64,000 bases of DNA from Krasilnikoviella flava (GTDB taxonomy: Bacteria; Actinomycetota; Actinomycetes; Actinomycetales; Cellulomonadaceae), in assembly GCF_900167525.1 (NCBI RefSeq), contig NZ_FUZQ01000004.1, forward strand, positions 306,747 to 370,746, given 5' to 3'. This document shows positions 38,188-57,720 of the stretch, one piece after another (within the stretch, counting starts at the first letter, position 1; the number at the start of each line of letters is the position of its first letter). The notes under the pieces were generated by a model that saw only the letters and a list, made by a program, of their open reading frames with translations, did no database searches and was not told the DNA's origin. The position numbers and the translations under genes were made by a program.

Positions 38188-41133
<2,946 letters not shown>

Positions 41134-41135
41134 GC

Positions 41136-42755
41136 TTGTCGACGCCGTTGACGGGCCGCCGGACGGCGGGGTCCCGACTCGAGGGCGCCCTGGCACGCAG
41201 CCAGGGCGCCTTCGGCACGCCCGCGCTCGCCCTGCTGCACCGCAAGGAGGGGCCGCTGGTCGTGGCCCTGCTGTCCCTCATCTTCACGCCCGGTCGGGCC
41301 ACCGTGCCGACCGAGCAGATGCACGTGGAGGTCGAGGACCTGCTCGCCGAGGCGCGGTCCGCCGGTCACGAGCTGCCCGACGACGCCGCCCGCGCGCTGT
41401 GCTCGCGCTGGGTTGCCGGCCGCTGGCTGGTGCGGGCGCTCGACGACGACGGCGTCGAGCAGTACCAGGTGAGCTCGCACGCGGCCGAGGCGCTGGCGTT
41501 CGTCGACCGCACCCAGGGCGCGCGCGCCCTGGTGAGCGAGTCGCGCATCCGCACCCTGCTCGTGGCCCTGGACGGGCTCGCGCGAGACGCCCGCCCCGAC
41601 CGCGAGTCGCAGCAGCGGGCGCTGCGGGAGCAGGCCGCGCGCGCCCGCGACGAGATCGCGGCCGCCGAGGCCGAGCTGGCGCGGCTCGACGCCGGCGGTC
41701 CCGTCGTGCAGGCGCCGACGGAACGCCTGGTCGAGCAGTTCGACAACGTGGCCGCGCTGGTGCGCGAGCTTCCCGCCGACTTCGCCCGCGTGGCCGAGTC
41801 GATCGCCGAGCTGCAGCGCAGCATCGTCACCAGCCTGCGCCAGGACGAGCGCCCGACCGGCGAGGTGCTGGGCGCCTACCTCGACGCCTCCGACACCCTC
41901 ATGCAGCGCACGCCCGAGGGCCGCGCCTTCTCCGGCGCGATGGAGCTGCTGCGCGACCCGCAGCTCCTCGGCCAGGTGGACGAGCGGGTGCGGGCCGTCC
42001 TGGCGCACCCGTTCGCCGGGGACCTGCCCGCCGACCGCCGCGAGTCCGTGCGTGCCCTGTACTCGCAGCTCCTGGCCGCCGTCGACGGCGTCCTCGACGC
42101 CCAGGCGCGCGCCTCGCGCACCATCACGCAGCAGCTCACGGTGCACAACCCGCTGCGCGACCGCGAGCTGGACTCCGCGCTGCGCGAGGCCACCGCGGCG
42201 ATGGCCGAATGGTTCCCGGTGTCGGGCCGCGCCGCGCGCGTGGAGCCTCTGCGCTGGCTGGAGCGTGCGCGCCTCGGGCGGTTCCGCGCCCAGCTGCACG
42301 ACCTGCGCCCCGACACGCCGCCCGACGCGCTGGCGGACCTCGACGACCCCGGCCACGACGCGGGCGGCGAGCCCCGGGAGATCCTGGGCGGCCTGCTGGG
42401 TATGGGCGGCCCGCGCTACGACGAGACGACGGCCCACGCGGTGCGGGTGCTGCGCGAGCGCGGCGACGCGACGGCGGACGAGGTGTTCTCCGCGGCGCCC
42501 GCGGAGCTCCGCCGGCCCGTGGAGCTGCTGGGCTACCTCGAGCTGGCGGCGCCGGGCGCGCTCGAGGAGGCGCTCGGCCACGGCGACGTCCCGGCCGCGC
42601 GGCTGCGCCGCGTGACGGCCGTGCGCGCTGACGGCAGCACCCGCGAGCTGGTGGTGCCCGAGATCCCGATCGAGGTACCGGACAACGGATCGGTCGACGC
42701 CTCGGACGACATGCCCCACGACCAGCCCCACGATCACCAGGAGACGGACGGATGA
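41136..42755 (+). CDS. jetA: JetA/MksF-like kleisin (DUF3375)
   Basis: A 539-residue protein of the DUF3375 family, the kleisin of Wadjet (JetA) and MksBEF condensins. Segments that fit the family are ALALLHRKEGPLVVALLSLIF at the start, LVEQFDNVAALVRELPADFARVAESIAELQRSIV in the helical middle (~200-235) and LYSQLLAAVDGVLDAQ. The C-terminal winged helix (~420-510) contacts the SMC head in known complexes. The TTG at 41136 lies two bases after the leuS stop. It is chosen because homology begins before the next candidate, GTG 41262, which has a good AAGGAGG site 11 bases upstream. It overlaps jetB by four bases (ATGA). Confidence 0.85.
   Translation: MSTPLTGRRTAGSRLEGALARSQGAFGTPALALLHRKEGPLVVALLSLIFTPGRATVPTEQMHVEVEDLLAEARSAGHELPDDAARALCSRWVAGRWLVRALDDDGVEQYQVSSHAAEALAFVDRTQGARALVSESRIRTLLVALDGLARDARPDRESQQRALREQAARARDEIAAAEAELARLDAGGPVVQAPTERLVEQFDNVAALVRELPADFARVAESIAELQRSIVTSLRQDERPTGEVLGAYLDASDTLMQRTPEGRAFSGAMELLRDPQLLGQVDERVRAVLAHPFAGDLPADRRESVRALYSQLLAAVDGVLDAQARASRTITQQLTVHNPLRDRELDSALREATAAMAEWFPVSGRAARVEPLRWLERARLGRFRAQLHDLRPDTPPDALADLDDPGHDAGGEPREILGGLLGMGGPRYDETTAHAVRVLRERGDATADEVFSAAPAELRRPVELLGYLELAAPGALEEALGHGDVPAARLRRVTAVRADGSTRELVVPEIPIEVPDNGSVDASDDMPHDQPHDHQETDG
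41184..41210 (+). terminator. Terminator-like hairpin inside the 5' end of jetA
   Basis: GGCGCCCTGG (41184-41193) pairs perfectly with CCAGGGCGCC (41201-41210) across a 7-base loop, followed by TTC. It has the strength and position of a leuS terminator, 51 bp past its stop, yet lies within the jetA reading frame if translation starts at 41136. Confidence 0.75.
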
Positions 42756-43522
42756 CCGGCACGACGCAGGACGTGGTCCCGGACGCAGACTCCGGGACGG
42801 AGCCGGACGCCTCGGGCGCGGGCGCGTTCGTCGCCGAGCCGGCGATCGCCGACGACGACGCGGCGCTGTTCGCCGGCGACACGGGGGTGCTCCCGTACGA
42901 GGCGCGCCGCGCGCTGGCGCTGGTGCTGCAGCGCCGCTACCTGTCGGCGGCGGCGCACCCGGCGGAGTGGAAGGCGCTGCTGGCGCACCAGAACGTGCTC
43001 GCCTCGCGGTGCCACGACCTGTTCGTGGAGCTCGTGGTCGACCGCGACTACGAGATCGCGTACAAGCGGCAGGTCCGCGAGGCCGGGCTGAGCATCCCCG
43101 TGCTGCTCAAGGACGAGCCGTACAAGCGGGTCGAGACGCTGCTCATGCTGTTCGCGCGCAACCGCTTCCGGCAGGAGCAGGGCGCGGGGGAGCGGGCCGC
43201 GCACGTGGATGCCGAGGAGCTGGTGGACTACGCGCTCGGGTTCCTCGCCGCGGACGAGACCAATCTCGCCGCGCGCCGGCGCGAGGTCGACAACGCGATC
43301 GCCACCCTCGTGCGCGAGCACGTGCTCGACGAGGTCGCCGAGGGGCGCTACCGGGTCCAGCCGGTCGTGGAGATCCTGCTGCCGGTGGAGCGGCTGCGCG
43401 AGCTGACGGCGTGGCTGCGCTCGCCGTCGGGCGAGCGGGACCCGTCAGCCGCGCCTGTCGAGCACCCCGAGCGCGAGGACGAGACCGAGCCGGTCGACGA
43501 GGACGAGGAGGCCCGCGCGTGA
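42752..43522 (+). CDS. jetB: JetB/MksE-like protein (DUF4194)
   Basis: A 256-residue protein of the DUF4194 family, the KITE subunit (JetB/MksE) that dimerises and bridges kleisin and SMC. An acidic, disordered N-terminus (~1-45) is followed by two winged-helix domains: ARRALALVLQRRYLSAAAHPAEWKALL, then DRDYEIAYKRQVREAGLSIPVLLKDEPYKRVETLLMLFARNRF, then DYALGFLAADETNLAARRREVDNAIATLVREHVLDEV. The C-terminus is acidic. It is coupled by overlaps at both ends (ATGA with jetA, GTGA with jetC), so all three are made from one message in fixed proportion. Confidence 0.9.
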   Translation: MTGTTQDVVPDADSGTEPDASGAGAFVAEPAIADDDAALFAGDTGVLPYEARRALALVLQRRYLSAAAHPAEWKALLAHQNVLASRCHDLFVELVVDRDYEIAYKRQVREAGLSIPVLLKDEPYKRVETLLMLFARNRFRQEQGAGERAAHVDAEELVDYALGFLAADETNLAARRREVDNAIATLVREHVLDEVAEGRYRVQPVVEILLPVERLRELTAWLRSPSGERDPSAAPVEHPEREDETEPVDEDEEARA

Positions 43523-46500
43523 CGATCACGAGCGACCCGGCGGAGCAGGTCGCTGCGCCCCGCATGCAGCAGTCGCTGTTCGGGCTGATCCCGACGGCGT
43601 CTGACGGGCGGCAGTGGACGGCGCGCTCCATGCAGCTGGTGAGCTGGGGCGGCTACCACGGCTACCACGAGGTGCGGTTCGCGGGCACGACGACGCTGCT
43701 CACGGGCGCGTCCGGGTCCGGCAAGTCGACCCTGCTGGACGCGTACATCGCGCTGATGATGAGCCACACGACGCCGTTCAACGGGGCGTCCAACACGGCC
43801 ACGAGCGGCCGGGCGCGCGGGCAGGAGCAGCGCAACGTCGTCTCGTACGCGCGGGGCAAGCTCGACGAGGAGCGCACTGCCGGGTCCGCGCGTGCGAAGG
43901 ACCGCGTGCTGCGCGGCGAGGCGTCGGACACCTGGTCGGGGATCGCGATGACCTGGTCGTCGCAGGCCGGGGAACGGTTCACGGCACTACGTGCCTGGTA
44001 CGTGCCGCGCGGCGCCCAGCGCACCGACGAGACGGTCGCGGTGCGCGCCGTCGTCGATGCGGACTTCAGCCTGCGCGACCTCGAGCCGCTCGCCGCCCAG
44101 CGGTTCGGCAGGACGGGGCTCACCGCGGCCGGGCTGACGACGTTCGACACGGACAAGGCGTTCGCCATCCGCCTGCACGCGGCGCTCGGCATCGGCGCCG
44201 CCGGCGACGGCGAGAAGGCCATGCAGCTGCTGGGCCGCATCCAGGCCGGGCAGCAGATCACCACGGTGGACTCGCTGTACAAGGCGATGGTGCTCGAGGA
44301 GCCGGAGACGATCCGGGTGGCCGAGCGCGCCGTCGAGCACTTCGACGAGCTCAGCGAGGTGCGCGCCGAGATGGACACGGCGCAGCGGCAGGTGGACGTG
44401 CTGCGCCCGATGCTGGAGCACCGGGCGGCGATCGACGACGCCGCCGCGCAGCGCCGGGTGGTGGACGCGCTCGGCCCGGACGGCGGTCCGGACGGCGGGG
44501 TCACGCCGTTCACGGCCTGGCGCGACCGCACCCAGCTCGATCTGCTCCGCGCCGGCGAGGCGGAGAACCGGGCCCAGCACAAGGCCGCGGCGGAGCGGGT
44601 CGCCGTCGCCGAGGAGCGGCTCACCGCCGCCCAGGGCGAGCTCGAGCAGGTGCGCGCCGACCAGCGGCGCAACGGCGGCGACGCCATCGAGGCCGCGGAG
44701 CGTGACGTCCGGGCGGCCGGGCAGCGGCTGGCCGAGGTGCGGCGCGCCCGCGCCGAGCTCGAGGGGCACCTGGCGCCGCTGGAACGGGACGCCGGGACGC
44801 GGCGGGAGCTGGACGCCCTGCACGCCGACGCCCGCCGGTACCTTGACGAGCGCGACACCCACACCGACGCCCTGTCCGAGGCGGTCGTCGAGGCCGCGGC
44901 CCGCGAGAAGGACGCGATGCGCGCCCTCGCCGAGCTGGAGCGCGAGGAGGCGTCGCTGAAGGCCCGCCGCGGCAACGTGCCGCGCGAGCTGCACGAGGCG
45001 CGCGAGGCGCTGGCCCGGGCGGCCGGGATGCGGGCGCAGGACGTGCCGTTCGTCGGCGAGCTGCTCGAGGTGCGCGGTGAGTACGAGCCCTGGCGCGACG
45101 CGATCGGCCTCGCGCTCGGGGGCCTCGCCGTGACGATGCTGGTCGACGAGGCGCGGCTGGACGCGTTCCGGGCCGCGATCGACGCCGTCCGCTCCCCGGT
45201 GCGCGTGCGCTTCGAGGGCGTCCCCACCGGCCTGGCGCTGCACGAGGAGACCGACCGTGCGCTGCTGCCCGGGCGGCTGGAGGTCAAGGCCGGGCCGTTC
45301 GGCGGGTGGCTCGCCGGCCGCCTGGCGGAACGTTTCGCCTACGTGTGCGTGGACGACCCGACCGAGCTGGCCCATCACGACCTGGCGCTCACCCGGTCGG
45401 GTCAGACGTCGGAGGGGCGTCGGGGCGCGCACGGCGGCCAGGGCCGGGCGTCGGTGCTGGGGTTCAGCAACCACCGGCGGCTCGAGCAGCTCGCCGAGCA
45501 GATCGGGGCGGCCCACCAGGAGCTGCGGCAGGCGTCCGAGGCGCTCGCGGGCGCGCGGCTGCGGCAGAAGGGCGAGGCCGACCACTTCGTCGCGTACAGC
45601 CACGCGCTGCGCGCCGCCTGGGACGACCTCGACGTGCGCGGGGCCGAGGAGCGGCTCGGCGAGCGGCAGGAGCGGCTCGAGACGCTGGTCGCGGGCTCGG
45701 ACGTGCTGCGCGCCCTCAAGGCGGACGAGGACCGGCTGCGCGCCCGCGTCGACGAGCTGTACCGGGAGCGTGCCGCGGCGCAGCAGCGCGTGACCGAGCT
45801 CGGCGCGGCGTGGGAGCAGCTGAGCGACCAGGTGGACCAGGTCGCGGACGCCGTCGAGCACGCCGACGCCGGGGGCATCGAACCGACGCCTGAGCAGGTG
45901 AGCCGGTTGGCCGAGCTCATGGCGCAGGTCGGCTGGTCCGGGGTGTCGGGCACGTCGGGCAGCGGCCTCGCGGACCTCACCACCGCCGTGGCCGCCGTCG
46001 TGCGGGAGCTCGACCACGAGCGGGAGGCCGCGCAGGAGGCGGAGCGGGCCGCCCGGGCGGCCCTCGCGGCGCTTTTCGAGCGGTTCAACGACACCTGGCC
46101 CGACCCGAACCGCAGCGCCGATCCCGACGGGGCCTACGCGGACTTCCTGCGGATCTACGAGGAGCTGGAGTACCAGCAGCTCTACCGGCTTCGGGACAAG
46201 TGGTCGGCGCACCTGCGCCAGATGTCGGGTGACCAGCTCACGCGGCTCAACAACGGCATCGCGCAGGCGGTCGCGGAGATCCGCGACCGCATGGAGCCCG
46301 TCAACGCGATCCTCGCGACGCTGCCGTTCCGCGACGAGGCGCACCGGCTGCGGATCACGGCCACCCCCGTCGAGGCGGGCGACGTGGTCTCGTTCCGGCG
46401 GCGGCTGCGCGAGCTGGCCGCGGTCCCCGCGGGCGACGTCCCGCTCGCCGAGCACGAGCGGCGGTACGACCGGATGCGCCGGCTCGTCGACCGCATCCGC

Positions 46501-46920
46501 CCGGACAGCCCGGAGCGGCGGCGCCTGGTGGACGTGCGCGACCACGTCCGCGTCAGCGCGGAGTGCGTGGACCGAGCGGGCAACCACGTGAGCGTCTACG
46601 ACCACATCGCCGGCAAGTCCGGTGGCGAGTCCCAGGAGCTCGTCGCGTTCATCGTCGGCGCGGCCCTGCGCTACCAGCTGGGCGACGCCGGGGCGGAGCG
46701 CCCGCGGTACGCGCCCGTGTTCCTCGACGAGGCGTTCATCAAGGCGGACGCCCGGTTCGCCGGCCGCGCCGTGGGTGCCTGGCGCGGGCTGGGCTTCCAG
46801 CTCGTCGTGGGCGCGCCGCTGGACAAGGTGAGCGCGCTGGAGCCGCACGCCGACGTCGTGCTGCAGGCGATCAAGGACGCGACCGGCCGGTCGCGGCTGG
46901 TGACGCTCGTGGGGGAGTGA
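43519..46920 (+). CDS. jetC: JetC/MksB-like SMC-type ATPase
   Basis: A 1133-residue SMC-like motor. The head has Walker A at 63-71 (GASGSGKST) after YHGYHEVRFAGTTTLLTG, the signature SGGES at ~1034-1038 and Walker B FLDE at ~1068-1071 (VFLDEAFIKADARF). Long coiled coils (~330-560 and ~700-830) flank a hinge (~560-690: VPFVGELLEVRGEYEPWRDAIGLALGGLAVTMLV). This is the form of JetC/MksB, shorter than MukB. JetABC complexes extrude DNA loops. In Wadjet the JetD nuclease then cuts small circles, but no JetD (DUF3322/DUF2220) gene follows; the next gene is glgP. Confidence 0.92.
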   Translation: MTITSDPAEQVAAPRMQQSLFGLIPTASDGRQWTARSMQLVSWGGYHGYHEVRFAGTTTLLTGASGSGKSTLLDAYIALMMSHTTPFNGASNTATSGRARGQEQRNVVSYARGKLDEERTAGSARAKDRVLRGEASDTWSGIAMTWSSQAGERFTALRAWYVPRGAQRTDETVAVRAVVDADFSLRDLEPLAAQRFGRTGLTAAGLTTFDTDKAFAIRLHAALGIGAAGDGEKAMQLLGRIQAGQQITTVDSLYKAMVLEEPETIRVAERAVEHFDELSEVRAEMDTAQRQVDVLRPMLEHRAAIDDAAAQRRVVDALGPDGGPDGGVTPFTAWRDRTQLDLLRAGEAENRAQHKAAAERVAVAEERLTAAQGELEQVRADQRRNGGDAIEAAERDVRAAGQRLAEVRRARAELEGHLAPLERDAGTRRELDALHADARRYLDERDTHTDALSEAVVEAAAREKDAMRALAELEREEASLKARRGNVPRELHEAREALARAAGMRAQDVPFVGELLEVRGEYEPWRDAIGLALGGLAVTMLVDEARLDAFRAAIDAVRSPVRVRFEGVPTGLALHEETDRALLPGRLEVKAGPFGGWLAGRLAERFAYVCVDDPTELAHHDLALTRSGQTSEGRRGAHGGQGRASVLGFSNHRRLEQLAEQIGAAHQELRQASEALAGARLRQKGEADHFVAYSHALRAAWDDLDVRGAEERLGERQERLETLVAGSDVLRALKADEDRLRARVDELYRERAAAQQRVTELGAAWEQLSDQVDQVADAVEHADAGGIEPTPEQVSRLAELMAQVGWSGVSGTSGSGLADLTTAVAAVVRELDHEREAAQEAERAARAALAALFERFNDTWPDPNRSADPDGAYADFLRIYEELEYQQLYRLRDKWSAHLRQMSGDQLTRLNNGIAQAVAEIRDRMEPVNAILATLPFRDEAHRLRITATPVEAGDVVSFRRRLRELAAVPAGDVPLAEHERRYDRMRRLVDRIRPDSPERRRLVDVRDHVRVSAECVDRAGNHVSVYDHIAGKSGGESQELVAFIVGAALRYQLGDAGAERPRYAPVFLDEAFIKADARFAGRAVGAWRGLGFQLVVGAPLDKVSALEPHADVVLQAIKDATGRSRLVTLVGE

Positions 46921-46924
46921 GCTG

Positions 46925-46950
46925 CGCACGGCGACGGGCCGCGCCGTGCG
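46925..46950 (+). terminator. Hairpin terminator of the jetABC operon
   Basis: CGCACGGCG (46925-46933) pairs perfectly with CGCCGTGCG (46942-46950), with an 8-base loop, starting 5 bp past the jetC stop. Confidence 0.7.
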
Positions 46951-46963
46951 GGCGGGCCGTGTG

Positions 46964-46969
46964 TACTGT
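46964..46969 (+). promoter_or_regulatory. Leaderless -10 element of the glycogen phosphorylase gene
   Basis: TACTGT lies six bases before the GTG at 46976. It shows that glgP has its own promoter and is not part of the jet operon. Confidence 0.6.
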
Positions 46970-46975
46970 CGTCAC

Positions 46976-49447
46976 GTGACCGAGACCACGCCTCTGATCA
47001 CCAGCCCGGAACCGACGGTCGAGGGGTTCGTGCGCGAGTACCTGCGCGAGCTCAACTTCTCCCAGGGCACGATCCTGGAGCGGGCCACGACCAACGACCA
47101 GTACCTGGCGCTCGCGCGCACGGTGCGGCACTACCTGATGTCCCGCTGGATGCAGACCACGGTGAGCCAGTACCGCTCGCAGGCCAAGGCGGTGGCCTAC
47201 CTGTCGGCGGAGTACCTCCTGGGCCGCCAGCTCGACAACGCGCTCATCGCGACCGGGCTGGAGGAGGTCGCCGCGGAGGCGCTCGCCAGCCTGGGCCTGG
47301 ACCTCGACGAGCTGCGCGAGGTGGAGGTGGAGCCGGGGCTCGGCAACGGCGGGCTCGGTCGGCTGGCGGCGTGCTTCGTGGACTCGCTGGCGACGATGAG
47401 CGTGCCCGCCATCGGGTACGGCATCCGCTACGAGTACGGCATCTTCCGGCAGCGGTTCGACGACGGCAGGCAGGTCGAGGAGCCGGACAACTGGCTCGAC
47501 AACGGCGCGCCGTGGGAGTTCGCGCACCCCGAGCACGAGGTCGCGGTCGGGTTCGGCGGCCGCACGGAGACGTACACGGACGACGACGGCCGCGAGCGCA
47601 CCCGCTGGCTGCCGGGCTGGCAGGTGCTCGGGGTCCCGTACAACTACATGGTGCCGGGCTACCGGAACGGGCGCGTCAACACGCTGCGGCTGTGGAGCGC
47701 GCGGGCCACGCACGCCTTCGACCTCAAGATCTTCAACTATGGCGACTACGCCGAGGCGGTCCGGTCACAGACTTTCGCGGAGAACATCTCCAAGGTGCTC
47801 TACCCGGAGGACTCCACGCCGCAGGGCAAGGAGCTGCGGTTGCAGCAGCAGTACTTCTTCGTGGCGTGCTCGATCCGCGACTTCATCGACCAGCTGCTGC
47901 CGCCGGGCTTCGACCTGCACGACCTGCCCGACCGAGTCGTCTTCCAGCTCAACGACACCCACCCCGTCATCGCGGTCCCGGAGCTGATGCGGATCCTCGT
48001 GGACGAGCGCGGCTTCGAGTGGGACGACGCGTGGCAGGTCACCCAGCGCTGCTTCGCGTACACGTGCCACACCCTGCTGCCGGAGGCACTGGAGGTGTGG
48101 CCGGTCGAGCTGGTCGGGCGACTGCTGCCGCGGCACCTGGAGATCGTCTACCGCATCAACGACGAGTTCCTCGCCCAGGTGCGCGAGCGTTCCGGCGGCG
48201 ACGAGCTGCTCGTGCGGCGCATGTCGATCATCGCGGAGCACCCCGAGCGGTCGGTGCGGATGGCGTACCTGGCGACGGTGGGCGGCTCGAAGGTGAACGG
48301 TGTCGCGGAGCTGCACTCGCAGCTGCTGCGCGACAAGGTGCTCGCCGACTTCGCCGCGTTCTGGCCGGAGAAGTTCACCAACGTCACCAACGGGGTCACG
48401 CCCCGGCGGTTCGTCAAGCTCGCCAACCCGGGGCTGTCCGGGCTGATCACCGAGGCCATCGGCGACGGGTGGGTCACCGACCTCGACCGGCTGCGCGAGC
48501 TCGAGCCGCTCGCCGACGACGCCGAGTTCCGCCGCCGGTTCCGCGAGGTCAAGGCCGCGAACAAGGACCGGCTCGTCTCCTTCCTGGCCGCGCGCGACGG
48601 CATCGCGATCGACCCGGCCACGATGCTCGACGTCATGGTCAAGCGGCTGCACGAGTACAAGCGCCAGCTGCTCAAGCTGCTGCACGTCGTCACGCTGTAC
48701 GACCGGATCACGTCGGGCGACCTCGCCGCGGCCGACGTCACGCCGCGCACCGTCGTCTTCGGCGCGAAGGCCGCGCCGGGCTACGTGATGGCGAAGGAGA
48801 TCATCGCGCTGATCAACCACGTCGGCGCCGTCGTGAACGCGCACCCCGACGTCTCGCGGGTGCTGCGGGTGGCGTTCCCGGCGAACTACAACGTGACCGT
48901 CGCCGAGACGCTCGTCCCCGCGGCGGACCTGTCGGAGCAGATCTCCCTGGCCGGCAAGGAGGCGTCCGGCACGGGCAACATGAAGTTCGCGCTGAACGGG
49001 GCGCTCACGATCGGCACGGACGACGGCGCGAACGTCGAGATCCGGCGCCTCGTGGGCGACGAGAACTTTTTCCTGTTCGGGCTCACCGAGCCCGAGGCGA
49101 GCGCCGTCGCGGAGGCGGGCTACCGCCCGGCCTCGTACTACGAGGAGAACGTGTCGTTGCGCCGGGCGCTGGACCTGATCGCCCGCGGCACCTTCTCCGG
49201 CGGCGACGGGTCGGTGTTCGAGCGGGTGGTCTCCAACCTGCTCAGCGAGGACCGCTTCATGGTGCTCGCCGACTACCAGGCCTACCTCGACGCCCAGGAG
49301 CGGGTGGAGCGGGCGTACGCCGACCCGGACGCCTGGAGCAGGTCGGCCGTGCTCAACGTGGCCCGCTCGGGGTTCTTCTCCTCCGACCGCTCGATGCGCG
49401 ACTACCTCGACCGCGTCTGGCACGCCGCGCCGCTCACGGCCGGCTGA
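46976..49447 (+). CDS. glgP: Glycogen/starch phosphorylase
   Basis: An 823-residue cytoplasmic enzyme that releases glucose 1-phosphate from alpha-1,4-glucans. Visible family features are AVAYLSAEYLLGRQLDNAL, the catalytic region VEPGLGNGGLGRLAACFVDSLATM, VTNGVTPRRF, KRLHEYKRQLLK and the PLP-binding Lys670 in EASGTGNMKFALNG. The length matches the GT35 family. GTG 46976 follows a -10 element at the leaderless spacing. No other glycogen genes are adjacent. Confidence 0.97.
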   Translation: MTETTPLITSPEPTVEGFVREYLRELNFSQGTILERATTNDQYLALARTVRHYLMSRWMQTTVSQYRSQAKAVAYLSAEYLLGRQLDNALIATGLEEVAAEALASLGLDLDELREVEVEPGLGNGGLGRLAACFVDSLATMSVPAIGYGIRYEYGIFRQRFDDGRQVEEPDNWLDNGAPWEFAHPEHEVAVGFGGRTETYTDDDGRERTRWLPGWQVLGVPYNYMVPGYRNGRVNTLRLWSARATHAFDLKIFNYGDYAEAVRSQTFAENISKVLYPEDSTPQGKELRLQQQYFFVACSIRDFIDQLLPPGFDLHDLPDRVVFQLNDTHPVIAVPELMRILVDERGFEWDDAWQVTQRCFAYTCHTLLPEALEVWPVELVGRLLPRHLEIVYRINDEFLAQVRERSGGDELLVRRMSIIAEHPERSVRMAYLATVGGSKVNGVAELHSQLLRDKVLADFAAFWPEKFTNVTNGVTPRRFVKLANPGLSGLITEAIGDGWVTDLDRLRELEPLADDAEFRRRFREVKAANKDRLVSFLAARDGIAIDPATMLDVMVKRLHEYKRQLLKLLHVVTLYDRITSGDLAAADVTPRTVVFGAKAAPGYVMAKEIIALINHVGAVVNAHPDVSRVLRVAFPANYNVTVAETLVPAADLSEQISLAGKEASGTGNMKFALNGALTIGTDDGANVEIRRLVGDENFFLFGLTEPEASAVAEAGYRPASYYEENVSLRRALDLIARGTFSGGDGSVFERVVSNLLSEDRFMVLADYQAYLDAQERVERAYADPDAWSRSAVLNVARSGFFSSDRSMRDYLDRVWHAAPLTAG

Positions 49448-49499: not shown

Positions 49500-51293
49500 T
49501 CAGCGCCGGCGGCGGGTGCCGAAGACCGTCCGCGTGATCTCCCGCGCGAGCGTCGTGCCGACCGTGGTGAGGATCGCGTCCACCGGGCTGCGGGAGCTGC
49601 GCCGGGACGGCGTGCCGGACGTCCGCGGTGCGCGGCCGGCGTCGCGGCGGGCCTTCTCGGCCTCCTTCTCGAGCTCGGCGGCGCGCTCGGCCGCCTCTCG
49701 GGCGGCGGTGTCCTGCGCGGCGCGCGCCTGCAGCAGCTCGTACGCGGACTCGCGGTCGACGGCGCCGCCGTAGCGCGCCTGGCCGGGGGAGGTCGCGACG
49801 GCGGCGTCGAGCACCTGCTGCGGCGCCGGGTCCATCGACGCCTGGGGCGCGCGCACGCGCGTCCACGCGACGGGCGTCGGCGCACCCTTCTCGTCGAGCA
49901 GGGTGACGACGGCCTCGCCCGTGCCGAGCGACTGCAGCAGCCGTTCCAGGTCGTAGGGCGAGGTGGGGAAGGTGCGGGCGGCTGCCCGCAACGCCTTGGC
50001 GTCGTCGGGGGTGAAGGCGCGCAGCGCGTGCTGCACGCGGTTGCCGAGCTGGGCGAGCACGTCGGCGGGCACGTCCTTGGGGGACTGGGTGACGAAGAAG
50101 ACGCCCACGCCCTTGCTGCGGATGAGCCGCACGGTCTGGACCACCTGCTGCAGGAAGTCCTTCGAGGCACCCGTGAACAGCAGGTGCGCCTCGTCGAAGA
50201 AGAACACGAGCCGCGGCTTGTCCGGGTCGCCCACCTCGGGCAGCTCCTGGAACAGCTCGGCGAGCAGCCACATGAGGAACGTGGAGAACAGGGCCGGTCG
50301 GTCCTGCACCCCGGGCAGCTCGAGGGCCGAGATCAGACCGCGGCCGTCCGGCGCGGTGCGCAGCAGGTCGGCGGTCTCGAAGGCCGGCTCGCCGAAGAAC
50401 ACACCGCCGCCCTGCGCCTGCAGGCCCACGATCTCGCGCAGGATGACGCCCGCGGAGGCGGTCGAGATGCCGCCGATGCCCTTGAGCGCCTGCTTGCCCT
50501 CGTCGGAGGTGAGGTAGGCGATCGTGGCCTGCAGGTCCTTGAGGTCGAGCAGCGCGAGCTGCTGGGTGTCGGCCCAGTGGAAGATCAGCTCGAGGCTGGA
50601 GGCCTGTGTCGCGTTGAGGCCCAGCACCTTGCTCAGCAGCAAGGGCCCGAAGTCGGTGACGGTCGTGCGGATCGGCACGCCGGTGCCGAGCCCGCCCAGG
50701 GAGTAGAACTCCACGGGGTAGGACGTCGGGGCCCATTCCTGCCCGATGCTCGCCGCGCGCTCGGCGACCTTCGGGTTGTCCGGGCCTTCGACGGCCAGGC
50801 CGGACAGGTCGCCCTTGATGTCCGCGAGGAAGACGGGGACGCCCTGGGCGGACAGGCCCTCCGCCATGCCCTGCAGGGTCTTCGTCTTGCCCGTGCCCGT
50901 GGCGCCCGCGACGAGCCCGTGGCGGTTCAGCGTCGCCAGCGGGAAGCCGACCTGGACCGTCGCGTCGGGCGTCGGGTCGCCGCCGAGCGTGCCCGACAGC
51001 AGCGCACCGAGGGGCAGGGCCGGGGCGTCGGAGGTGTAGCCCTCGCGCACCACGTCCGCGTAGGACGCCGGGGCCGCGGGCTCGGCGTCCGGCGTCGGGA
51101 CGGTGTCGGTGTGCCGCGCATCCGCGGGGGCGGGCGGGGGGACGTCCTCGCTCGCGGCCTCCGCCGCCTCGAGCGCTGCCTGGGCGGCGGCGGCCTTCGC
51201 CTCGGCGGCCTCGGCCTCGGCCGCGGCCTGCGCGGCGGCCGCGCGCAGCGCAGCGAGCTCGGCGGCCCTTGCGGGCGGTGTCCCCTCGGCCAT
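49500..51293 (-). CDS. HerA-like ATPase (DUF853)
   Basis: A 597-residue P-loop protein of the DUF853 group related to HerA/FtsK translocases. An Ala-rich coiled-coil N-terminus (~8-45) is followed by a linker, then Walker A at ~130-138 (GATGTGKTKT), LADIKGDLSGLA, Walker B near residue 380 (LVFFFDEAHLLF) and the sensor VGVFFVTQSPKDVP with an arginine further on. The C-terminus (~540-597) is basic. The cellular role of DUF853 is not established. The ATG at 51293 follows a TAGCGT element by seven bases (51301-51306, minus strand), so it is leaderless; the longer frame upstream overlaps the Zur boxes and is not used. Confidence 0.88.
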   Translation of the reverse strand: MAEGTPPARAAELAALRAAAAQAAAEAEAAEAKAAAAQAALEAAEAASEDVPPPAPADARHTDTVPTPDAEPAAPASYADVVREGYTSDAPALPLGALLSGTLGGDPTPDATVQVGFPLATLNRHGLVAGATGTGKTKTLQGMAEGLSAQGVPVFLADIKGDLSGLAVEGPDNPKVAERAASIGQEWAPTSYPVEFYSLGGLGTGVPIRTTVTDFGPLLLSKVLGLNATQASSLELIFHWADTQQLALLDLKDLQATIAYLTSDEGKQALKGIGGISTASAGVILREIVGLQAQGGGVFFGEPAFETADLLRTAPDGRGLISALELPGVQDRPALFSTFLMWLLAELFQELPEVGDPDKPRLVFFFDEAHLLFTGASKDFLQQVVQTVRLIRSKGVGVFFVTQSPKDVPADVLAQLGNRVQHALRAFTPDDAKALRAAARTFPTSPYDLERLLQSLGTGEAVVTLLDEKGAPTPVAWTRVRAPQASMDPAPQQVLDAAVATSPGQARYGGAVDRESAYELLQARAAQDTAAREAAERAAELEKEAEKARRDAGRAPRTSGTPSRRSSRSPVDAILTTVGTTLAREITRTVFGTRRRR

Positions 51294-51346
51294 GGCCCGC
51301 ACGCTAGCGCGGCGTCGCCGCGGTGGCGCGTCGAGCCGAACGCGCT

Positions 51347-51361
51347 TGAGAACGGTTCTCA
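51347..51361 (+). promoter_or_regulatory. Zur-like box 1
   Basis: TGAGAACGGTTCTCA is a perfect palindrome around a central G. It matches the AANCGNTT-containing 15-mer typical of actinobacterial zinc-uptake-regulator boxes. It lies 79 bp before the AztD start. Confidence 0.65.
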
Positions 51362-51385
51362 CATCTGCTTCACTGTCCGGGCACA

Positions 51386-51400
51386 TGGGAAGCGTTCTCA
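51386..51400 (+). promoter_or_regulatory. Zur-like box 2
   Basis: TGGGAAGCGTTCTCA resembles box 1 in 12 of 15 positions. It is centred 39 bp downstream of it, close to four helical turns, and 40 bp before the AztD start. Two in-phase boxes strengthen the case for zinc repression. Confidence 0.65.
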
Positions 51401-51439
51401 TGTGGCCCTCGTCGTGCTGCCCATCCGGAAAGAAGACTC

Positions 51440-52798
51440 ATGCCTTCCCCCACCCCCACCCGCACCCCCGGAGCTCGCCACCGGCACCGTCTGCCGGCGC
51501 TGGCGCTCGCCCTGACCGTGCCCGCCGCGCTCTCCGGCTGCGCCTCGGCCGAGCCCGCAGGCGAGGACGCGGCGGCCGTCCCGTCCGAGACGTCGGCGCA
51601 GGCGACCGAGGCCGCCGCCGCCACCGCGCGGATCGCCATCACCTACGACGGCGGCGTCGCCGTGCTCGACGCGCAGACGCTGGAGCAGGTCGCCGACCTG
51701 CCGCTCGACGGCTTCACCCGCCTCAACCCGGCCGGCGACGGCCGCCACCTGCTGGCGTCCACGACCGGCGGCTTCCGCGCCGTCGATCTCGGGGCCTGGG
51801 CCGAGGCGCACGGCGACCACCACCACTTCTGGACGGCCGAGCCGCGCCTCACCGACGTCACGTACGCCGCCGAGGAGCCCGGCCACGTCGTCGTGCACGG
51901 GGGGCGCACCGTGCTGTTCGACGACGGGACGGGGCAGGTCAGCGTGCTCGACTCCGCCCACGTGGCGGAGGGCGAGGCCCCGGCGCGGGAGCTCACCACG
52001 CCGGCGGCGCACCACGGGGTCGCCGTCGAACTCGCCGACGACACGCTGCTCGTCACCGAGGGCACCGAGGAGTCCCGCTCCGGGGTGCGCGTCCTGGACG
52101 CCGACGACCGGGAGATCGCGGCCAGCGACGACTGCCCCGGGGTGCACGGGGAAGCGGTCGCGGCCGACGAGGCCGTGGTCGTGGGCTGCGAGGACGGCAT
52201 CCTCGTCTACGCAGGCGGCGAGCTGACCAAGGTCCAGGCGCCCGACGACTACGGCCGCATCGGCAACCAGGCCGGGTCCGAGGAGTCCCCGATCGTCCTC
52301 GGTGACTACAAGACCGACCCTGACGCCGAGCTGGAGCGGCCCACGCGCGTCTCGCTCGTCGACACGCGCACCGGCGAGCTCTCGCTGGTCGACCTCCCGT
52401 CGAGCTACACGTTCCGGTCCCTCGCACGGGGCGACGACGGCGAGGCGCTCGTGCTGGGCACCGACGGCGCCCTGCACGTGATCGACCCCGAGAGCGGCAA
52501 GCTCTCGACGTCGATCCCCGTGCTCGACGCCTGGGAGGAGCCGGTCGAGTGGCAGGAGCCGCGCCCGGCGGTCCTCGCGCTGGACGGTTCGGTGTACGTG
52601 ACGGACCCCGCGACGAAGTCCCTGCACGCCGTCGACCTCGAGTCCGGCGAGGTCTGGAAGTCGGTCCAGCTCGACGTCGCGCCGAACGAGATCTCCGGAG
52701 TCTCGGGCGACGTCGAGGCACACGGCGAGACACACGGCGCGGACGAGGGCGACGACCACGGGTCGGACGAGTCGCACGAGTCGCACGATCACGAGTGA
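51440..52798 (+). CDS. aztD: AztD-type zinc metallochaperone lipoprotein
   Basis: A 452-residue exported protein. The signal peptide ends in LSGC with the lipidated Cys34. The mature part is a beta-propeller with repeats such as TYDGGVAVLDAQTLEQVADLPLDGF. His-rich zinc sites are present: HGDHHH (124-129), His pairs in TPAAHHGV, and a C-terminal tail with many His-Asp/Glu pairs. AztD proteins deliver zinc to the AztC binding protein of an ABC importer. No aztABC genes are beside it. The two Zur boxes upstream predict expression when zinc is scarce. The ATG is preceded by GGAAAGAAG. Confidence 0.9.
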   Translation: MPSPTPTRTPGARHRHRLPALALALTVPAALSGCASAEPAGEDAAAVPSETSAQATEAAAATARIAITYDGGVAVLDAQTLEQVADLPLDGFTRLNPAGDGRHLLASTTGGFRAVDLGAWAEAHGDHHHFWTAEPRLTDVTYAAEEPGHVVVHGGRTVLFDDGTGQVSVLDSAHVAEGEAPARELTTPAAHHGVAVELADDTLLVTEGTEESRSGVRVLDADDREIAASDDCPGVHGEAVAADEAVVVGCEDGILVYAGGELTKVQAPDDYGRIGNQAGSEESPIVLGDYKTDPDAELERPTRVSLVDTRTGELSLVDLPSSYTFRSLARGDDGEALVLGTDGALHVIDPESGKLSTSIPVLDAWEEPVEWQEPRPAVLALDGSVYVTDPATKSLHAVDLESGEVWKSVQLDVAPNEISGVSGDVEAHGETHGADEGDDHGSDESHESHDHE

Positions 52799-52853: not shown

Positions 52854-53732
52854 ATGCCCAACGAAGCCCCCGCGGTCCGCGTCGTCACCGACTCGACCGC
52901 CTGCCTGCCCGCCGCCGCCGCCGACGCCGGCGCGCCCGTCGTCGTCCCGCTCCGCGTCGTGTCGGGCGAGGAGTCGTGGCGCGAGGGCGTCGACATCACG
53001 CCGGAGGAGGTGGCCGCGCGAATCACCGCGGGCGAGCGGCTCAGCACCTCTCAGCCCTCACCGGCAGAGTTCGCCGGCGTCTACCGCGACCTCGTCGCCG
53101 ACGGGGCGCAGGCGGTGGTCGGGGTCTACCTGTCGGGCGCGCTGTCCGGTACCGTCGAGGTAGCCGCGAGCGCCGGGCACCGCGCGATGATCCCGGTGCA
53201 GGCGATCGACTCCCGCACCGTCGCGATGGCACTCGGGTTCGCCGCGCTGGAGGCCGCGCGGTGCGCCGCCGAGGGGCACGATGCCGCGACCGTCGCCGCA
53301 CGGGCGCGGCAGGTCGCGGCCTCGAGCACGACGGTGTTCCTCGTCGACTCCCTCGACCACCTGCGCCGCGGTGGGCGGCTGTCCGCCCCGGCCGCCGCGC
53401 TCGGTACCGCCCTCGGGGTGCGGCCCATCCTCGCGGTGCGCGACGGCGGGATCGAGATGGCGCAGCGCGTACGCACCCGTCGCGCGGCCACCGACCGGCT
53501 GGTCGAGCTCGCGCTGCGCCGGGCCGAGACGTGCGAACGTCCCGGTCTGGCCGTGCACCACCTCGGGGTGCCCGAGCGGGCGGCGGAGCTGGCCGAGCGG
53601 CTGGGGGCCGCCACCGGGGCGGAGCCCGTGGTCACCCCCGTGAGCGCGGTGCTCGGTGCGCACGCCGGGCCGGGGGCGCTCGCCGTCGTCGTCGCCGAGC
53701 TGGGCGGACGCCCGCGCGACGCCGTGCGCTGA
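52854..53732 (+). CDS. DegV family protein
   Basis: A 292-residue cytoplasmic protein of the DegV/FakB fold, which binds a fatty acid between its two domains. The N-terminus VRVVTDSTACLP is the family signature (ligand-contacting Thr-Asp-Ser). STSQPSPAEF and the later SRTVAMALGFAALEAA and FLVDSLDHLRRGGRLS are further conserved blocks. In Gram-positive bacteria FakB hands fatty acids to the kinase FakA. The gene precedes comEA in many actinobacteria. Its start is set by the leaderless -10. Confidence 0.95.
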   Translation: MPNEAPAVRVVTDSTACLPAAAADAGAPVVVPLRVVSGEESWREGVDITPEEVAARITAGERLSTSQPSPAEFAGVYRDLVADGAQAVVGVYLSGALSGTVEVAASAGHRAMIPVQAIDSRTVAMALGFAALEAARCAAEGHDAATVAARARQVAASSTTVFLVDSLDHLRRGGRLSAPAAALGTALGVRPILAVRDGGIEMAQRVRTRRAATDRLVELALRRAETCERPGLAVHHLGVPERAAELAERLGAATGAEPVVTPVSAVLGAHAGPGALAVVVAELGGRPRDAVR

Positions 53733-53815: not shown

Positions 53816-54976
53816 GTGACCACCACGCTGCCCCACGACCCTGCCGACGTCGAGCCGTCGGACGGCACCGGACCCGACGGCACCGGCCCGTCCGACGGCA
53901 CGAGGCCGCCCGGCGACGTCGGGCGGCCGGACGACGCGCCGTGGCGCGCGCGGGACCCCGCGCTGGACGAGGCCGCGGCACGGCTGCACGCGTGGCACGC
54001 CCTGCGGGAGGAGACCGACGAGCCCCCTCGAGAGGACCCCGGCCAAGGGCGCGCGGTCACCCCGCCCGTCGCCGGCACGGCGGCGGGGCAGGGCGCGGTG
54101 GCGGGGGCGGTGCCGGCCGAGGAGGACGAGCTTGCCGCGCGCCTGCGTGCCCGCCGGTCGGCGCGGCACGTCGCCGCGGCGTACGCGGCCGCGCACGGGC
54201 ACCCGCTCGGCGGGCACGACGGCGGCGGACCGCGTCGATGGTCGATCGGGCTGCGTGCCGCGGTCGTGGCGTCGGCCGTCGTGGTGCTCGTGGCCGTTCT
54301 CGTCGCGGTGGTCGCGTCGGCCCGGCCCGACGACGTCATCACCCTCGCCGGGGGGAACGCGCCGTCCGCGTCCGACGCCGCGTCCGACGCCGCGGCCGGC
54401 GATGCAGGTGCCGCCGCCGCGGACGGCGGGGCAGGCGCGTCACCCGCCCCGGGCGCAGACACACCGGACGCGGAGCTTGACCCCGGCGAGACGTCGGGGC
54501 CGACTCCCGCGCCGGGGACGGTCGTGGTGCACGTGGTGGGCGAGGTGCGCGAGCCGGGCCTGGTCACCGTCCCGACGGGCGCCCGGGTGGCGGACGCGGT
54601 GGCCGCCGCCGGGGGGACGACCCGGCGCGCCGACGCCGCGGCGCTCAACCTGGCGCGCGCCGTGGTCGACGGCGAGCAGATCCGCGTGCCGCGGCCGGGT
54701 GAGGCGCCGCAGATCGCCGACGGTGCTGCCGCCGGGGACGGCGCCGCAGCGGGGCCGGGCGAGAGCTCGGGCACCGGCACGGGAGGGACGGTGGACCTCA
54801 ACACCGCGGGGGTGACGGAGCTCGAGGAGCTGCCCGGCATCGGCCCGGCGCTGGCCGGGCGGATCATCGCGTGGCGCGACGAGCACGGTCCGTTCACCAG
54901 CGTCGACGAGCTCGACGAGGTCTCCGGGATCGGGCCGGCCGTGCTCGGGCAGGTCCGCGACCTGGTCCGGCTGTGA
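53816..54976 (+). CDS. comEA: ComEA-like DNA-uptake receptor
   Basis: A 386-residue membrane protein. A long charged cytoplasmic part (~1-140) precedes a helix (AAVVASAVVVLVAVLVAVVA). Outside are an Ala/Asp/Gly-rich spacer, an SLBB domain (~235-290: VHVVGEVREPGLVTVPTGARVADAVAAAGG) and a helix-hairpin-helix DNA-binding domain (~323-385: VDLNTAGVTELEELPGIGPALAGRIIAWR and a second hairpin VSGIGPAVLGQV). It binds incoming double-stranded DNA for ComEC. The long N-terminus is unusual compared with Bacillus ComEA. It is leaderless (TAGCGT six bases before the GTG) and overlaps comEC by four bases. Confidence 0.94.
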   Translation: MTTTLPHDPADVEPSDGTGPDGTGPSDGTRPPGDVGRPDDAPWRARDPALDEAAARLHAWHALREETDEPPREDPGQGRAVTPPVAGTAAGQGAVAGAVPAEEDELAARLRARRSARHVAAAYAAAHGHPLGGHDGGGPRRWSIGLRAAVVASAVVVLVAVLVAVVASARPDDVITLAGGNAPSASDAASDAAAGDAGAAAADGGAGASPAPGADTPDAELDPGETSGPTPAPGTVVVHVVGEVREPGLVTVPTGARVADAVAAAGGTTRRADAAALNLARAVVDGEQIRVPRPGEAPQIADGAAAGDGAAAGPGESSGTGTGGTVDLNTAGVTELEELPGIGPALAGRIIAWRDEHGPFTSVDELDEVSGIGPAVLGQVRDLVRL

Positions 54977-57720
54977 GGGCGCGGCGTCCGGGTCCGGAGC
55001 TACTGCTGCCGCCACGGTCCGGGACGTCCGCGCCGGTGCTGCGCGGAGCAGTGGCCGCCGGGCTCGGAGCTGTGCCGGGCCGAGACGAGGGAGACGGGAG
55101 CGTGGTGCCGCCGCCCCGGCGGGTCGACCTGCGCCTGGTACCGGCAGTGCTCGCCACCTGGGGAGTCGCCTGGGCGCTCACCGGTGCCGCGCAAGCCTGG
55201 GCGCCTCCGGTGGCCGTCGGGGCGGCGCTCGGCGCAGTCGGCGTGGGGGTCGCGCTGGGTGCCGTCACGCGGGCGCGGCGACGGTCGCGACACGGCGCGC
55301 CCGCGTTGCCCGCCGCCACGCCCGCCGCCGTGCCCGCCGCCATGCCCGCCGCCATCGCGCCGGACATCAGGCCGGACGCACCGGACACCGTGCCGTCTCG
55401 AGCTCCCCGGGGGGCGCGCGGCTCCCGAGGCGCCCGATGGGCGGGCGGCCGCCGGGCCGTCGCGGTGCATGCCGTCCTGGTCCTTGCCTGCGTCGCGGCC
55501 GTCGCGCTGGGGGTGCACGCGCAGGCCGCCCGCCAGGCGCCGCTGCGGGCGCTGTCCGGGCAGGGCGCGCACGCCGAGCTGGTCGGGCGGGTCGCCTCGG
55601 AGGCGCGGCCCGCGGTCTTCGGTACGGGCGACCGGTGGGTGCTGGCGGTGCGCCAGGTGGCCGCGCGCGGGGTGGCGGTGCCCACCGCCGGCCTCGTCGA
55701 GATCACCGCGGACGGTCCGGTGCCGCGGTTCGGGTCCACCGTCGTGGTCTCGGGCGTGCTGCGCCCGGTGTCCGGCGGCGACGGACCGCTGGCCCGGCTG
55801 GCGGCGTCCGACCCGGTGGCGGAGCGCGCACCGCCGTCGGCGCTGCTGCGCGGGACGCACACGATGCGGTCGGCGCTCCTGGACGTCACGGAGCCCCTGT
55901 CCCCGCAGGCCCGCGGGCTGGTACCGGGCGTCGCGGTAGGCGACACGAGCCGGGTGCCCGACACCGTCGACGAGGCGATGCGGGTCACGAGCCTCACGCA
56001 CGTCACCGCGGTGTCCGGCGGCCACTTCGCGATCGTGGTGGCCGCGCTCACCGCCCTGTGCGCGCTGGCCCGTGCCCCGCGGACGGTGCGGGTGGTGGTC
56101 GTGGCGGCCGTTGCGGCCGCGTTCGTCCTCCTCGTGCGGCCCGAGCCCAGCGTGCTCCGGGCGGCCTGGACCTGCGCCGCGGCGCTCCTGGGGCTCGCCC
56201 TCGGCCGGCCGTCGGCAGGCGCCCCCGCGCTCGCCGCCGCGGCGACGGTGCTGCTCGTCGTCGACCCGTGGCTGGCGCGCTCCTTCGGGTTCGTGCTGTC
56301 GTGCGCGGCGACCGCGGGCCTCGTGCTGCTGGCGGGTCCGCTCGCGCGCCGGCTGACGCCGTGGACCGGGCGTCCGCTCGCGTTCGCGCTCGCCGTCCCG
56401 TGGGCCGCGCAGGCCGCATGCGGGCCGGTGCTGCTCCTGATCGACCCGCACGTGCCGCTCATGTCCGTGCCCGCAAACCTTCTCGCGACGCCCGCCCTGG
56501 TCCCGGCCACCGTCCTCGGGCTCGTGGCCACGTTGCTCGCCCCATGGGCGCCGGGTCTCGCGCTGCCCGTCGCCTGGCTCGCAGGGACGGCCACGGGCTG
56601 GATCGCCGTGGTGGCGCAGACGTTCGCCGCCGTGCCGGGCGCACGACTGCCCTGGCCGGGCGGCGCCGGCGGGGTGGCCGCGCTGGCGCTGCTGACCCTC
56701 GCGGGCCTCGCGCTCGTGCTGCGCCGACCGCCCGGCGAGGGCTGGCGCCGCGAGTGGCGCGAGGCCGTGCCACGGGTCGTGCGGCGGGCGCGCGGGCAGG
56801 TCCGGCGCACGACGGCACGGCACGGGCGCGCGCGGACCGCCGCTGTGGCTGGGCTGGCCGGCCTCGCCCTGCTGGCGGTCGTCGTGGTGATGGTGCCTCG
56901 CCTCGCGGGAGCCGGGCACCGCGTCCCGGCAGACTGGCAGGTGGCCGCCTGCGACGTCGGCCAGGGCGACTCCCTCGCGGTCCGTACGGGGCCGGAGTCG
57001 GCGGTGGTGGTGGACGTGGGCCCCGACGGCGAGGCCGCCGGCCGGTGCCTCGACCGGCTCGGCGTCACGACCGTGGACCTGCTGGTGCTCAGCCACTTCC
57101 ACGCCGACCACGTGGGAGGGCTGGCGGCGGTGCTGCGGGGCCGTGCCGTCACGGACGCACTGGTCTCACCGCTCGACCAGCCGGAGGGCCAGGCGGCGTC
57201 GGCGCGGTCGCAGCTCGACGCCGCAGGCGTGCCGGTCCACGTGGCGGCCGCGGGAGACGGCGGATCGGCGGGCTCCGCGACCTGGCAGGTGCTCGGGGCC
57301 TCGGGCGCGTCGCGCGCGGGCGGGTCGGGCGGGGGAGACGAGGGCGACGGGGCGAACGACGCCAGCGTCGCGGTCGAGCTGCGCACCGCCGGCGGGCTCG
57401 ACGTCGTGGCGCTCGGTGACCTGGAGGAGCCGGGTCAGGAGGCCCTGGTGGCCGACCTCGCCGCGTCGGGGCGGTCGGCCGACGTCGACGTGGTGAAGAT
57501 GGCCCATCACGGGTCGCGGTCGCAGTCGGCGGCGCTCGCCCGGCACCTGTCACCGCGCGTCACGCTCGTGAGCGTGGGCGCGGACAACACCTACGGGCAC
57601 CCCACCGACGACGCGCTGTCCCTGTACGCGTCCGTGGGTTCCGCCCTGGTGCGCACCGACGAGTGCGGCACGGCCGCGCTGGTGGGACGGGGCGACGAGA
57701 TCGGCCTGGCCTGCGGGTAG
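54973..57720 (+). CDS. comEC: ComEC/Rec2 DNA-uptake channel
   Basis: A 915-residue membrane protein that carries single-stranded DNA into the cell. It has an OB-like domain (~220-300), the Competence domain with about seven helices and the signature HVTAVSGGHFAIV, and a C-terminal metallo-beta-lactamase-like domain (~655-915: ACDVGQGDSLAV; SHFHADHVGG; MAHHGSRSQ) thought to degrade one strand. The metal ligands HxHxDH are intact. The GTG at 54973 overlaps the comEA stop (GTGA), so the two are co-translated. The length is full, so a working uptake channel is plausible. Confidence 0.95.
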   Translation: MRARRPGPELLLPPRSGTSAPVLRGAVAAGLGAVPGRDEGDGSVVPPPRRVDLRLVPAVLATWGVAWALTGAAQAWAPPVAVGAALGAVGVGVALGAVTRARRRSRHGAPALPAATPAAVPAAMPAAIAPDIRPDAPDTVPSRAPRGARGSRGARWAGGRRAVAVHAVLVLACVAAVALGVHAQAARQAPLRALSGQGAHAELVGRVASEARPAVFGTGDRWVLAVRQVAARGVAVPTAGLVEITADGPVPRFGSTVVVSGVLRPVSGGDGPLARLAASDPVAERAPPSALLRGTHTMRSALLDVTEPLSPQARGLVPGVAVGDTSRVPDTVDEAMRVTSLTHVTAVSGGHFAIVVAALTALCALARAPRTVRVVVVAAVAAAFVLLVRPEPSVLRAAWTCAAALLGLALGRPSAGAPALAAAATVLLVVDPWLARSFGFVLSCAATAGLVLLAGPLARRLTPWTGRPLAFALAVPWAAQAACGPVLLLIDPHVPLMSVPANLLATPALVPATVLGLVATLLAPWAPGLALPVAWLAGTATGWIAVVAQTFAAVPGARLPWPGGAGGVAALALLTLAGLALVLRRPPGEGWRREWREAVPRVVRRARGQVRRTTARHGRARTAAVAGLAGLALLAVVVVMVPRLAGAGHRVPADWQVAACDVGQGDSLAVRTGPESAVVVDVGPDGEAAGRCLDRLGVTTVDLLVLSHFHADHVGGLAAVLRGRAVTDALVSPLDQPEGQAASARSQLDAAGVPVHVAAAGDGGSAGSATWQVLGASGASRAGGSGGGDEGDGANDASVAVELRTAGGLDVVALGDLEEPGQEALVADLAASGRSADVDVVKMAHHGSRSQSAALARHLSPRVTLVSVGADNTYGHPTDDALSLYASVGSALVRTDECGTAALVGRGDEIGLACG

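Follow-up and report, generated by a model that had tools for sequence, protein, structure and literature searches.

The jetABC locus and the absence of JetD

The window analyzed here, a stretch of 64,000 nucleotides from the genome of the actinobacterium Krasilnikoviella flava, contains three overlapping genes, jetA, jetB and jetC, which encode, respectively, a DUF3375 kleisin, a DUF4194 KITE protein and an ATPase resembling the structural maintenance of chromosomes (SMC) proteins, and which are not followed by jetD, the gene for the nuclease of type I Wadjet systems (Table 1). Comparison of this locus with its relatives suggests that JetD, coming and going on the same lineage, is an optional addition to a JetABC that stays in place, and that the jetABC genes themselves are apparently exchanged in place next to leuS.

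An earlier note, made from the letters of this DNA, had named the three products as the JetABC set, and the profile searches bear this out: all three are assigned to type I Wadjet families, JetA by Pfam DUF3375 (340 bits) and PADLOC JetA1 (521 bits), JetB by DUF4194 (121.5 bits) and JetB1 (261 bits), and JetC by PADLOC JetC1 (1440 bits, residues 18-1134 of the supplied stretch). The nearest solved structures are those of JetC (8dk2_C, E=2e-51) and JetA (8q72_E, E=3e-19), and the solved JetB structures match the window JetB weakly (E=0.004). JetC scored below the cut-off with the Pfam model of the MukB N-terminus (16.8 bits, cut-off 23) and was also missed by SMC_N (12 bits, cut-off 40) and SMC_prok_B (33, cut-off 567). 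The motifs that we take to be the Walker A, ABC signature and Walker B motifs of JetC are intact: among 12 aligned JetC proteins from JetD-less loci, G63, S65, G66, G68, K69, S70, T71 and L72 of Walker A are invariant, as are the ABC signature and Walker B.

The overlaps of jetA with jetB and of jetB with jetC, described in the note, point to a single operon, and the flanking genes, leuS upstream and glgP downstream, were also named correctly, both being recognized by Pfam. The TTG start of jetA lies two bases past the leuS stop codon, and a TTG at the same site, in the jetA frame, is found also in G142, G143 and G144 (G and L numbers denote genomes and loci of our samples), where the first residues differ. 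The terminator that had been placed behind jetC did not materialize: a scan for intrinsic-terminator-like sites gave 0 in positions 40900-47300, and inspection by eye finds a short G+C-rich inverted repeat 3' of jetC with no T run.

Table 1. Features of the jetABC locus and its surroundings, in window coordinates (aa, amino acids)
Feature	Position	Strand	Remarks
leuS, leucyl-tRNA synthetase	38188..41133	+	Pfam tRNA-synt_1_2 editing domain; stop codon 41131-41133
jetA, DUF3375 kleisin, 539 aa	41136..42755	+	length counted from the TTG start
jetB, DUF4194 KITE protein, 256 aa	42752..43522	+	ATG start within the jetA stop
jetC, SMC-like ATPase, 1133 aa	43519..46920	+	GTG start within the jetB stop
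JetC presumed Walker A, TGASGSGKSTL, residues 62-72	43702..43734	+	
JetC presumed ABC signature KSGGESQ (residues 1033-1039) to Walker B VFLDEAFIKAD (1067-1077)	46615..46749	+
jetC-glgP gap, the would-be jetD site	46921..46975	+	too small for any gene
glgP, glycogen phosphorylase	46976..49447	+	Pfam Phosphorylase, 1047 bits; the GTG start at 46976 is our choice
HerA-like helicase	49500..51401	-	PF05872, 627 bits; convergent to the glgP end
Probable lipoprotein	51440..52798	+	His- and acid-rich tail, possibly metal-binding (by eye)
DegV	52854..53732
ComEA-like protein	53816..54976		HHH_3 and SLBB domains
ComEC	54871..57720

The note had described jetD as unlinked at this locus, and the search of the genome (4.85 Mb in 10 contigs, 100% complete) extends this statement: Pfam JetD_C, DUF3322 and a profile built from 16 JetD sequences gave 0 matches, whereas the two Pfam models, used as positive controls, matched in Corynebacterium glutamicum. 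A DUF2399 search also gave no match, but its controls were silent too, so it carries little weight. An ordinary Wadjet split by a jetD elsewhere in the genome, which the note had considered, is thus not what is found here. With respect to the JetD contact in JetB, which has been described as an IFDR motif at the N-terminus (PMC10586767), the part of the window JetB that was viewed contains no literal IFDR, and solved JetB aligns differently in that region; an [LI][FW]xxDxGxL-like motif, whose equivalence to IFDR is unproven, is kept, with exceptions, in JetD-positive and JetD-less loci.

JetA without JetD is common in Actinomycetota. Of 396 genomes sampled from the phylum, 16 had DUF3375 matches above the cut-off, at 18 places in all; JetD lies no more than about 6 kb away at 8 of these places and is absent from that range at 10, so that the condition is no peculiarity of the window genome; at three of these 10 places, the genome carries a JetD elsewhere (G228, G294 and G545). 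In the family sample (f1), which also includes Cellulomonas, the JetC model PDLC00517, which also picks up some distant SMC-like proteins according to its controls, matches at least 169 of the 221 genomes among the matches listed (E <= 0.001), and JetD is matched in 32 of the 221 by the JetD profile and in 31 by Pfam JetD_C.

JetD as a changing partner of JetABC

A phylogenetic tree of JetC was built from the window and 121 fetched loci (122 in total), 112 of which form the main clade. Left out were G149 and JetC that were fragmented or belonged to other subfamilies (e.g., G013, G025, G056, G074, G092, G159, G186, G197, G214, G218 and the genera g6, g15 and g22); L172, the contig of G213 that bears a JetD, yielded no JetC, so that this JetD is assigned to no locus. 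Within the same family, G057, G058 and G180 (L174-L176) and these three genera carry other, distant JetC subfamilies; L174-L176, the three such loci that were fetched, have no JetD behind jetC, and at L176 similarity found no JetB.

Behind jetC, JetD is absent at 99 of the 112 main-clade loci, is reduced to a remnant at two (G060 and G081) and is present at 11. Eleven of the 99 JetD-less loci come from genomes with a JetD elsewhere, and none was found in the other 88. Each of the 11 JetD-positive loci is isolated among closest relatives that are JetD-negative, so the clade requires a minimum of 11 state changes, and 34 losses when loss is taken to be irreversible. When a two-state model was fitted to these loci on a single JetC gene tree from FastTree, which samples species unevenly, has one genome per species and is uncertain at its root, gain plus loss reached a log-likelihood of -35.0 compared with -40.7 for gain alone and -50.6 for loss alone, so that loss of JetD as the only process was rejected for its far worse fit.

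Comparison of close relatives points in the same direction. Among 14 pairs, four (G041/G053, G052/G098, G187/G184 and G187/G185; three independent ones, G187 being used twice) show a clean presence or absence of jetD, a difference of about 1.2-1.3 kb. In G041, the DNA 1283 bases past the jetC stop is the DNA found 48 bases past it in G053, with 88% identity, and in G187 and G184 the matching downstream DNA lies at 1329 and 25 bases, respectively. Compared with its sister G059, G060 lacks an internal stretch of jetD and keeps only a 3' remnant, and G081 likewise keeps a piece of jetD. The downstream difference between G054 and G090 is about 2.5 kb; in five compared pairs (G155/G181, G162/G163, G189/G190, G216/G213 and G137/G160), a downstream match was absent, and in G211/G215 and G211/G219 the genes downstream differ.

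The recent spread of a single JetD was also considered and rejected: the identities among the JetD proteins of the 11 positive loci are 38-59% and are moderately correlated with those of JetC (Mantel r 0.52, p 0.028). In the approximately unbiased (AU) test, the JetD data rejected the JetC topology (p 0.016) and the JetB topology (p 0.005) but kept the JetA topology (p 0.128); because the JetC topology is rejected and that of JetA is not, JetD seems to have been exchanged among fairly close JetABC types. In a wider tree that includes other actinobacterial families and whose rooting is uncertain, the subclade of the window falls into a JetD-less basal grade, so JetD may either have disappeared from its lineage at an early time or never have been part of it.

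No shared gene takes the place of jetD behind jetC. The 80 named loci, many of which come from the same genomes as the family sample, include 20 with JetD, 55 without it, one with a remnant and four that could not be judged, and the commonest same-strand family directly behind jetC is JetD itself (20), followed by glgP (10), in a ranking based on the 25 biggest reading-frame clusters, of which several are plainly shadow frames. At 18 of the 55 JetD-less loci, chosen by us, one neighbor within 2.6 kb was selected by codon bias and compared with Pfam: these genes belong to unrelated families (transporters, hydrolases, histidine kinases, regulators, VanY, rhodanese), with one antisense DUF222/HNH gene, one match below the cut-off and three genes without a match. 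A replacement nuclease behind jetC was therefore dismissed, since there is no common partner gene besides JetD and glgP.

The leuS slot and selection on jetABC

The window belongs to a subclade of 28 loci from seven genera, six of which are Isoptericola, Sanguibacter, Paraoerskovia, Jonesia, Timonella and Luteimicrobium. In this subclade, leuS lies directly upstream at all 27 testable loci, the remaining contig being too short, and no JetD is found behind jetC at any of the 28; glgP follows jetABC in most of the members of the window genus that were examined. The other 84 main-clade loci include 10 linked to leuS, two of them with JetD (G137 and G211), 45 unlinked and 29 that could not be judged (27 JetD-less and two JetD-positive, with upstream DNA that is too short).

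Although leuS and the operon adjoin, the trees of JetC and LeuS for the 36 leuS-linked loci conflict, and each data set rejects the tree of the other (AU p 1e-75 and 2e-6); L171 and L079 were left out of this comparison, and in the LeuS tree several inner branches are weak but the key groups have a support of 100. Pairwise comparisons tell the same story at close range. Between G137 and G150, leuS is 91% and glgP 92% identical, but jetA only 48%, jetB 46% and jetC 54%; between G160 and G161, the values are 83% for leuS, 46% for jetA and 58% for jetC; and G161 and the window share 76% in leuS and 82-85% in JetABC. The tree conflict and these blocks of identity indicate that whole operons have been replaced between unchanged neighbors. 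At the position next to leuS, G137 and G211 carry JetABCD and their relatives carry JetABC. Judging from these comparisons, then, alleles of JetABC replace one another beside leuS, and this site has also been occupied by a JetABCD cassette.

DUF3375 is present in all 18 genomes of the window genus, of which four have JetD: G137 at the leuS slot, and G140, G145 and G150 in a second, separate JetABCD. For nine pairs of loci in which both members are JetD-less, a simple Nei-Gojobori count on these G+C-rich genes gave ratios of nonsynonymous to synonymous substitution rates (dN/dS) of 0.06-0.22 for jetC, 0.09-0.24 for jetA and 0.04-0.32 for jetB, with 0.07-0.36 for leuS (8 measurable pairs) and 0.08-0.23 for glgP (6 pairs). 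By this measure, JetABC is kept under purifying selection akin to that on leuS and glgP and is not decaying.

Insertions between jetC and glgP were seen in some relatives. An insert of about 1 kb is present in G136, G138, G139, G141 and G146 (L063, L065, L066, L069 and L075), and a gap of similar size in G142; by eye, the insert, which is not present in the window, carries on the antisense strand a gene about 270-350 codons long, whose product is fibronectin-III-like and appears to be secreted. The longest of the 12 jetC-glgP intervals examined, in G147 (L076), contains instead genes for a TetR-like regulator and an MFS-like transporter, also recognized by eye.

Function of JetABC and its relation to known systems

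SMC complexes such as Wadjet and MukBEF are dimeric, ATP-driven loop extruders. By analogy with these and with MksBEF of Pseudomonas aeruginosa, JetC dimers would assemble with JetA, the kleisin, and with JetB into an extruder that loads onto DNA, reels it in and then releases rather than cuts it; acquisition of jetD would turn the same kind of motor into a plasmid cutter. JetABC would work without JetD, and its job is most likely auxiliary chromosome organization or segregation beside Smc-ScpAB, as in Pseudomonas, a reading that we hold with about even confidence. In the window genome, ScpA, the only component of Smc-ScpAB that was searched for, is encoded on another contig, which makes the presence of Smc-ScpAB probable. 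Without JetD, the window complex would not be expected to cleave small circular DNA. The note had left open whether the complex is a condensin or is completed by an unlinked or different nuclease; the condensin role is favored here. No unlinked JetD was found in the genome, and no common gene points to a different nuclease at a fixed position.

Several observations weigh against this reading. A plain chromosomal condensin should be inherited together with its neighbors, and the conflict between the JetC and LeuS trees and the divergence of jetABC between flanks that are about 90% identical suggest block swapping of a more arms-race-like kind. The complex is patchy outside the genus, in both the family and the phylum samples. 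Five of the 28 subclade genomes carry a second-system JetD that could, in principle, act in trans. JetD-positive groups exist outside the family, e.g., 12 of 18 loci in the Actinomadura/Actinoplanes/Lentzea group, so JetD is not a rare visitor everywhere. Finally, the nuclease-bearing MksBEFG of C. glutamicum, an actinobacterial system as well, is reported to act on plasmids rather than on the chromosome (PMC7083940).

What speaks most against a plain condensin is the swapping in place, and for this reason we keep, as a possible though unlikely alternative, immunity to mobile DNA without cutting: the JetD-less JetABC would reel in small circular DNA and block its replication, expression or segregation, JetD would be an optional cutter, and swapping would reflect escape by plasmids or phages. 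Exchange of cassettes between unchanged flanks fits this alternative better than it fits a condensin, and the occupation of the leuS slot by JetABCD in two genomes and by JetABC in their relatives, as well as the gain and loss of JetD on the same lineage, agree with it. However, the complex is present throughout the genus and is constrained like a housekeeping gene, and to our knowledge, no anti-plasmid effect of a nuclease-free JetABC is on record. In C. glutamicum, moreover, plasmid defense is reported to be executed by the nuclease MksG (PMC10123090). In its general form, the alternative would hold, tentatively, that type I JetABC of Actinomycetota is a stand-alone system that acts on mobile DNA independently of a nuclease, with its alleles exchanged at the leuS slot under an arms race and JetD as a plug-in gained and lost many times. 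If this is true, the customary one-way story from JetABCD through loss of JetD to a condensin becomes two-way traffic.

It is rather improbable that JetABC is a chassis kept between periods of JetD ownership, with selection acting mainly in carriers of jetD and the JetD-less states being transient. The JetD-negative nearest relatives of every JetD-positive locus in the 112-locus clade and the fast fitted rates of gain and loss would fit such a scheme, but JetD-less pairs, too, show strong purifying selection, and JetD is missing behind jetC throughout the 28-locus subclade, which spans seven genera. Completion of the defense in trans by a different, unlinked nuclease is still less credible: a second complete JetABCD is found in five subclade genomes, but the window genome has no JetD, and JetD and glgP are the only common genes behind jetC. 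Decay of a former Wadjet, which the note had also entertained, is very unlikely, given the intact frames and ATPase motifs, the dN/dS values well below 1 and the presence in all genomes of the genus, even though the jetD remnants next to intact jetC in G060 and G081 indicate that the nuclease can be lost.

The window operon resembles type I Wadjet JetABCD (also known as MksBEFG or EptABCD) in the type I models that match its products, in the A-B-C gene order and in the structural matches of JetC and JetA; it differs in having no jetD in the genome, in its setting between leuS and glgP and in its presence in every genome of the genus. With MukBEF, the plan of which is SMC-kleisin-KITE, it shares this plan, but JetC falls below the MukB cut-off. 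In gene content it is like MksBEF of P. aeruginosa, a nuclease-free kleisin-KITE-SMC operon in a genome that probably also has Smc-ScpAB, whereas the window clade is set apart by the repeated change of JetD and the in-place swaps of JetABC. Pseudomonas MksBEF has been assigned roles in chromosome organization and segregation (PMC7485682). MksBEFG of C. glutamicum, likewise an actinobacterial DUF3375/SMC set and matched in the control searches, includes MksG (JetD) and acts on plasmids, and its authors saw no chromosomal role (PMC7083940, PMC10123090). A three-gene JetABC Wadjet in another actinobacterium, Paenarthrobacter lasiusi, stands beside a complete type I system (PMC11719660, as given in Table 6 of that paper).

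MksBEF without JetD is thus already known from Pseudomonas, and what appears to be new here is the pattern of JetD turnover. Text searches of open-access titles and the openings of abstracts found no account of a conserved JetABC that gains and loses JetD repeatedly, nor of JetABC exchange at a leuS slot, which is weak evidence of novelty. The question of how one SMC motor can maintain the chromosome in one bacterium and destroy plasmids in another can be approached here: the natural JetABC pairs with and without JetD (e.g., G041/G053, G059/G060 and G187/G184), together with the exchange slot, make the step between defense and non-defense testable in close relatives. Counts that accept JetABC without JetD as a defense system may overstate plasmid defense in actinobacteria.

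Among the neighbors listed in Table 1, degV, comEA and comEC lie near the operon, as had been described, with the start of comEA 6.9 kb past jetC. A relative of the HerA-like helicase that converges on glgP is found directly behind jetC in Sanguibacter and some others.

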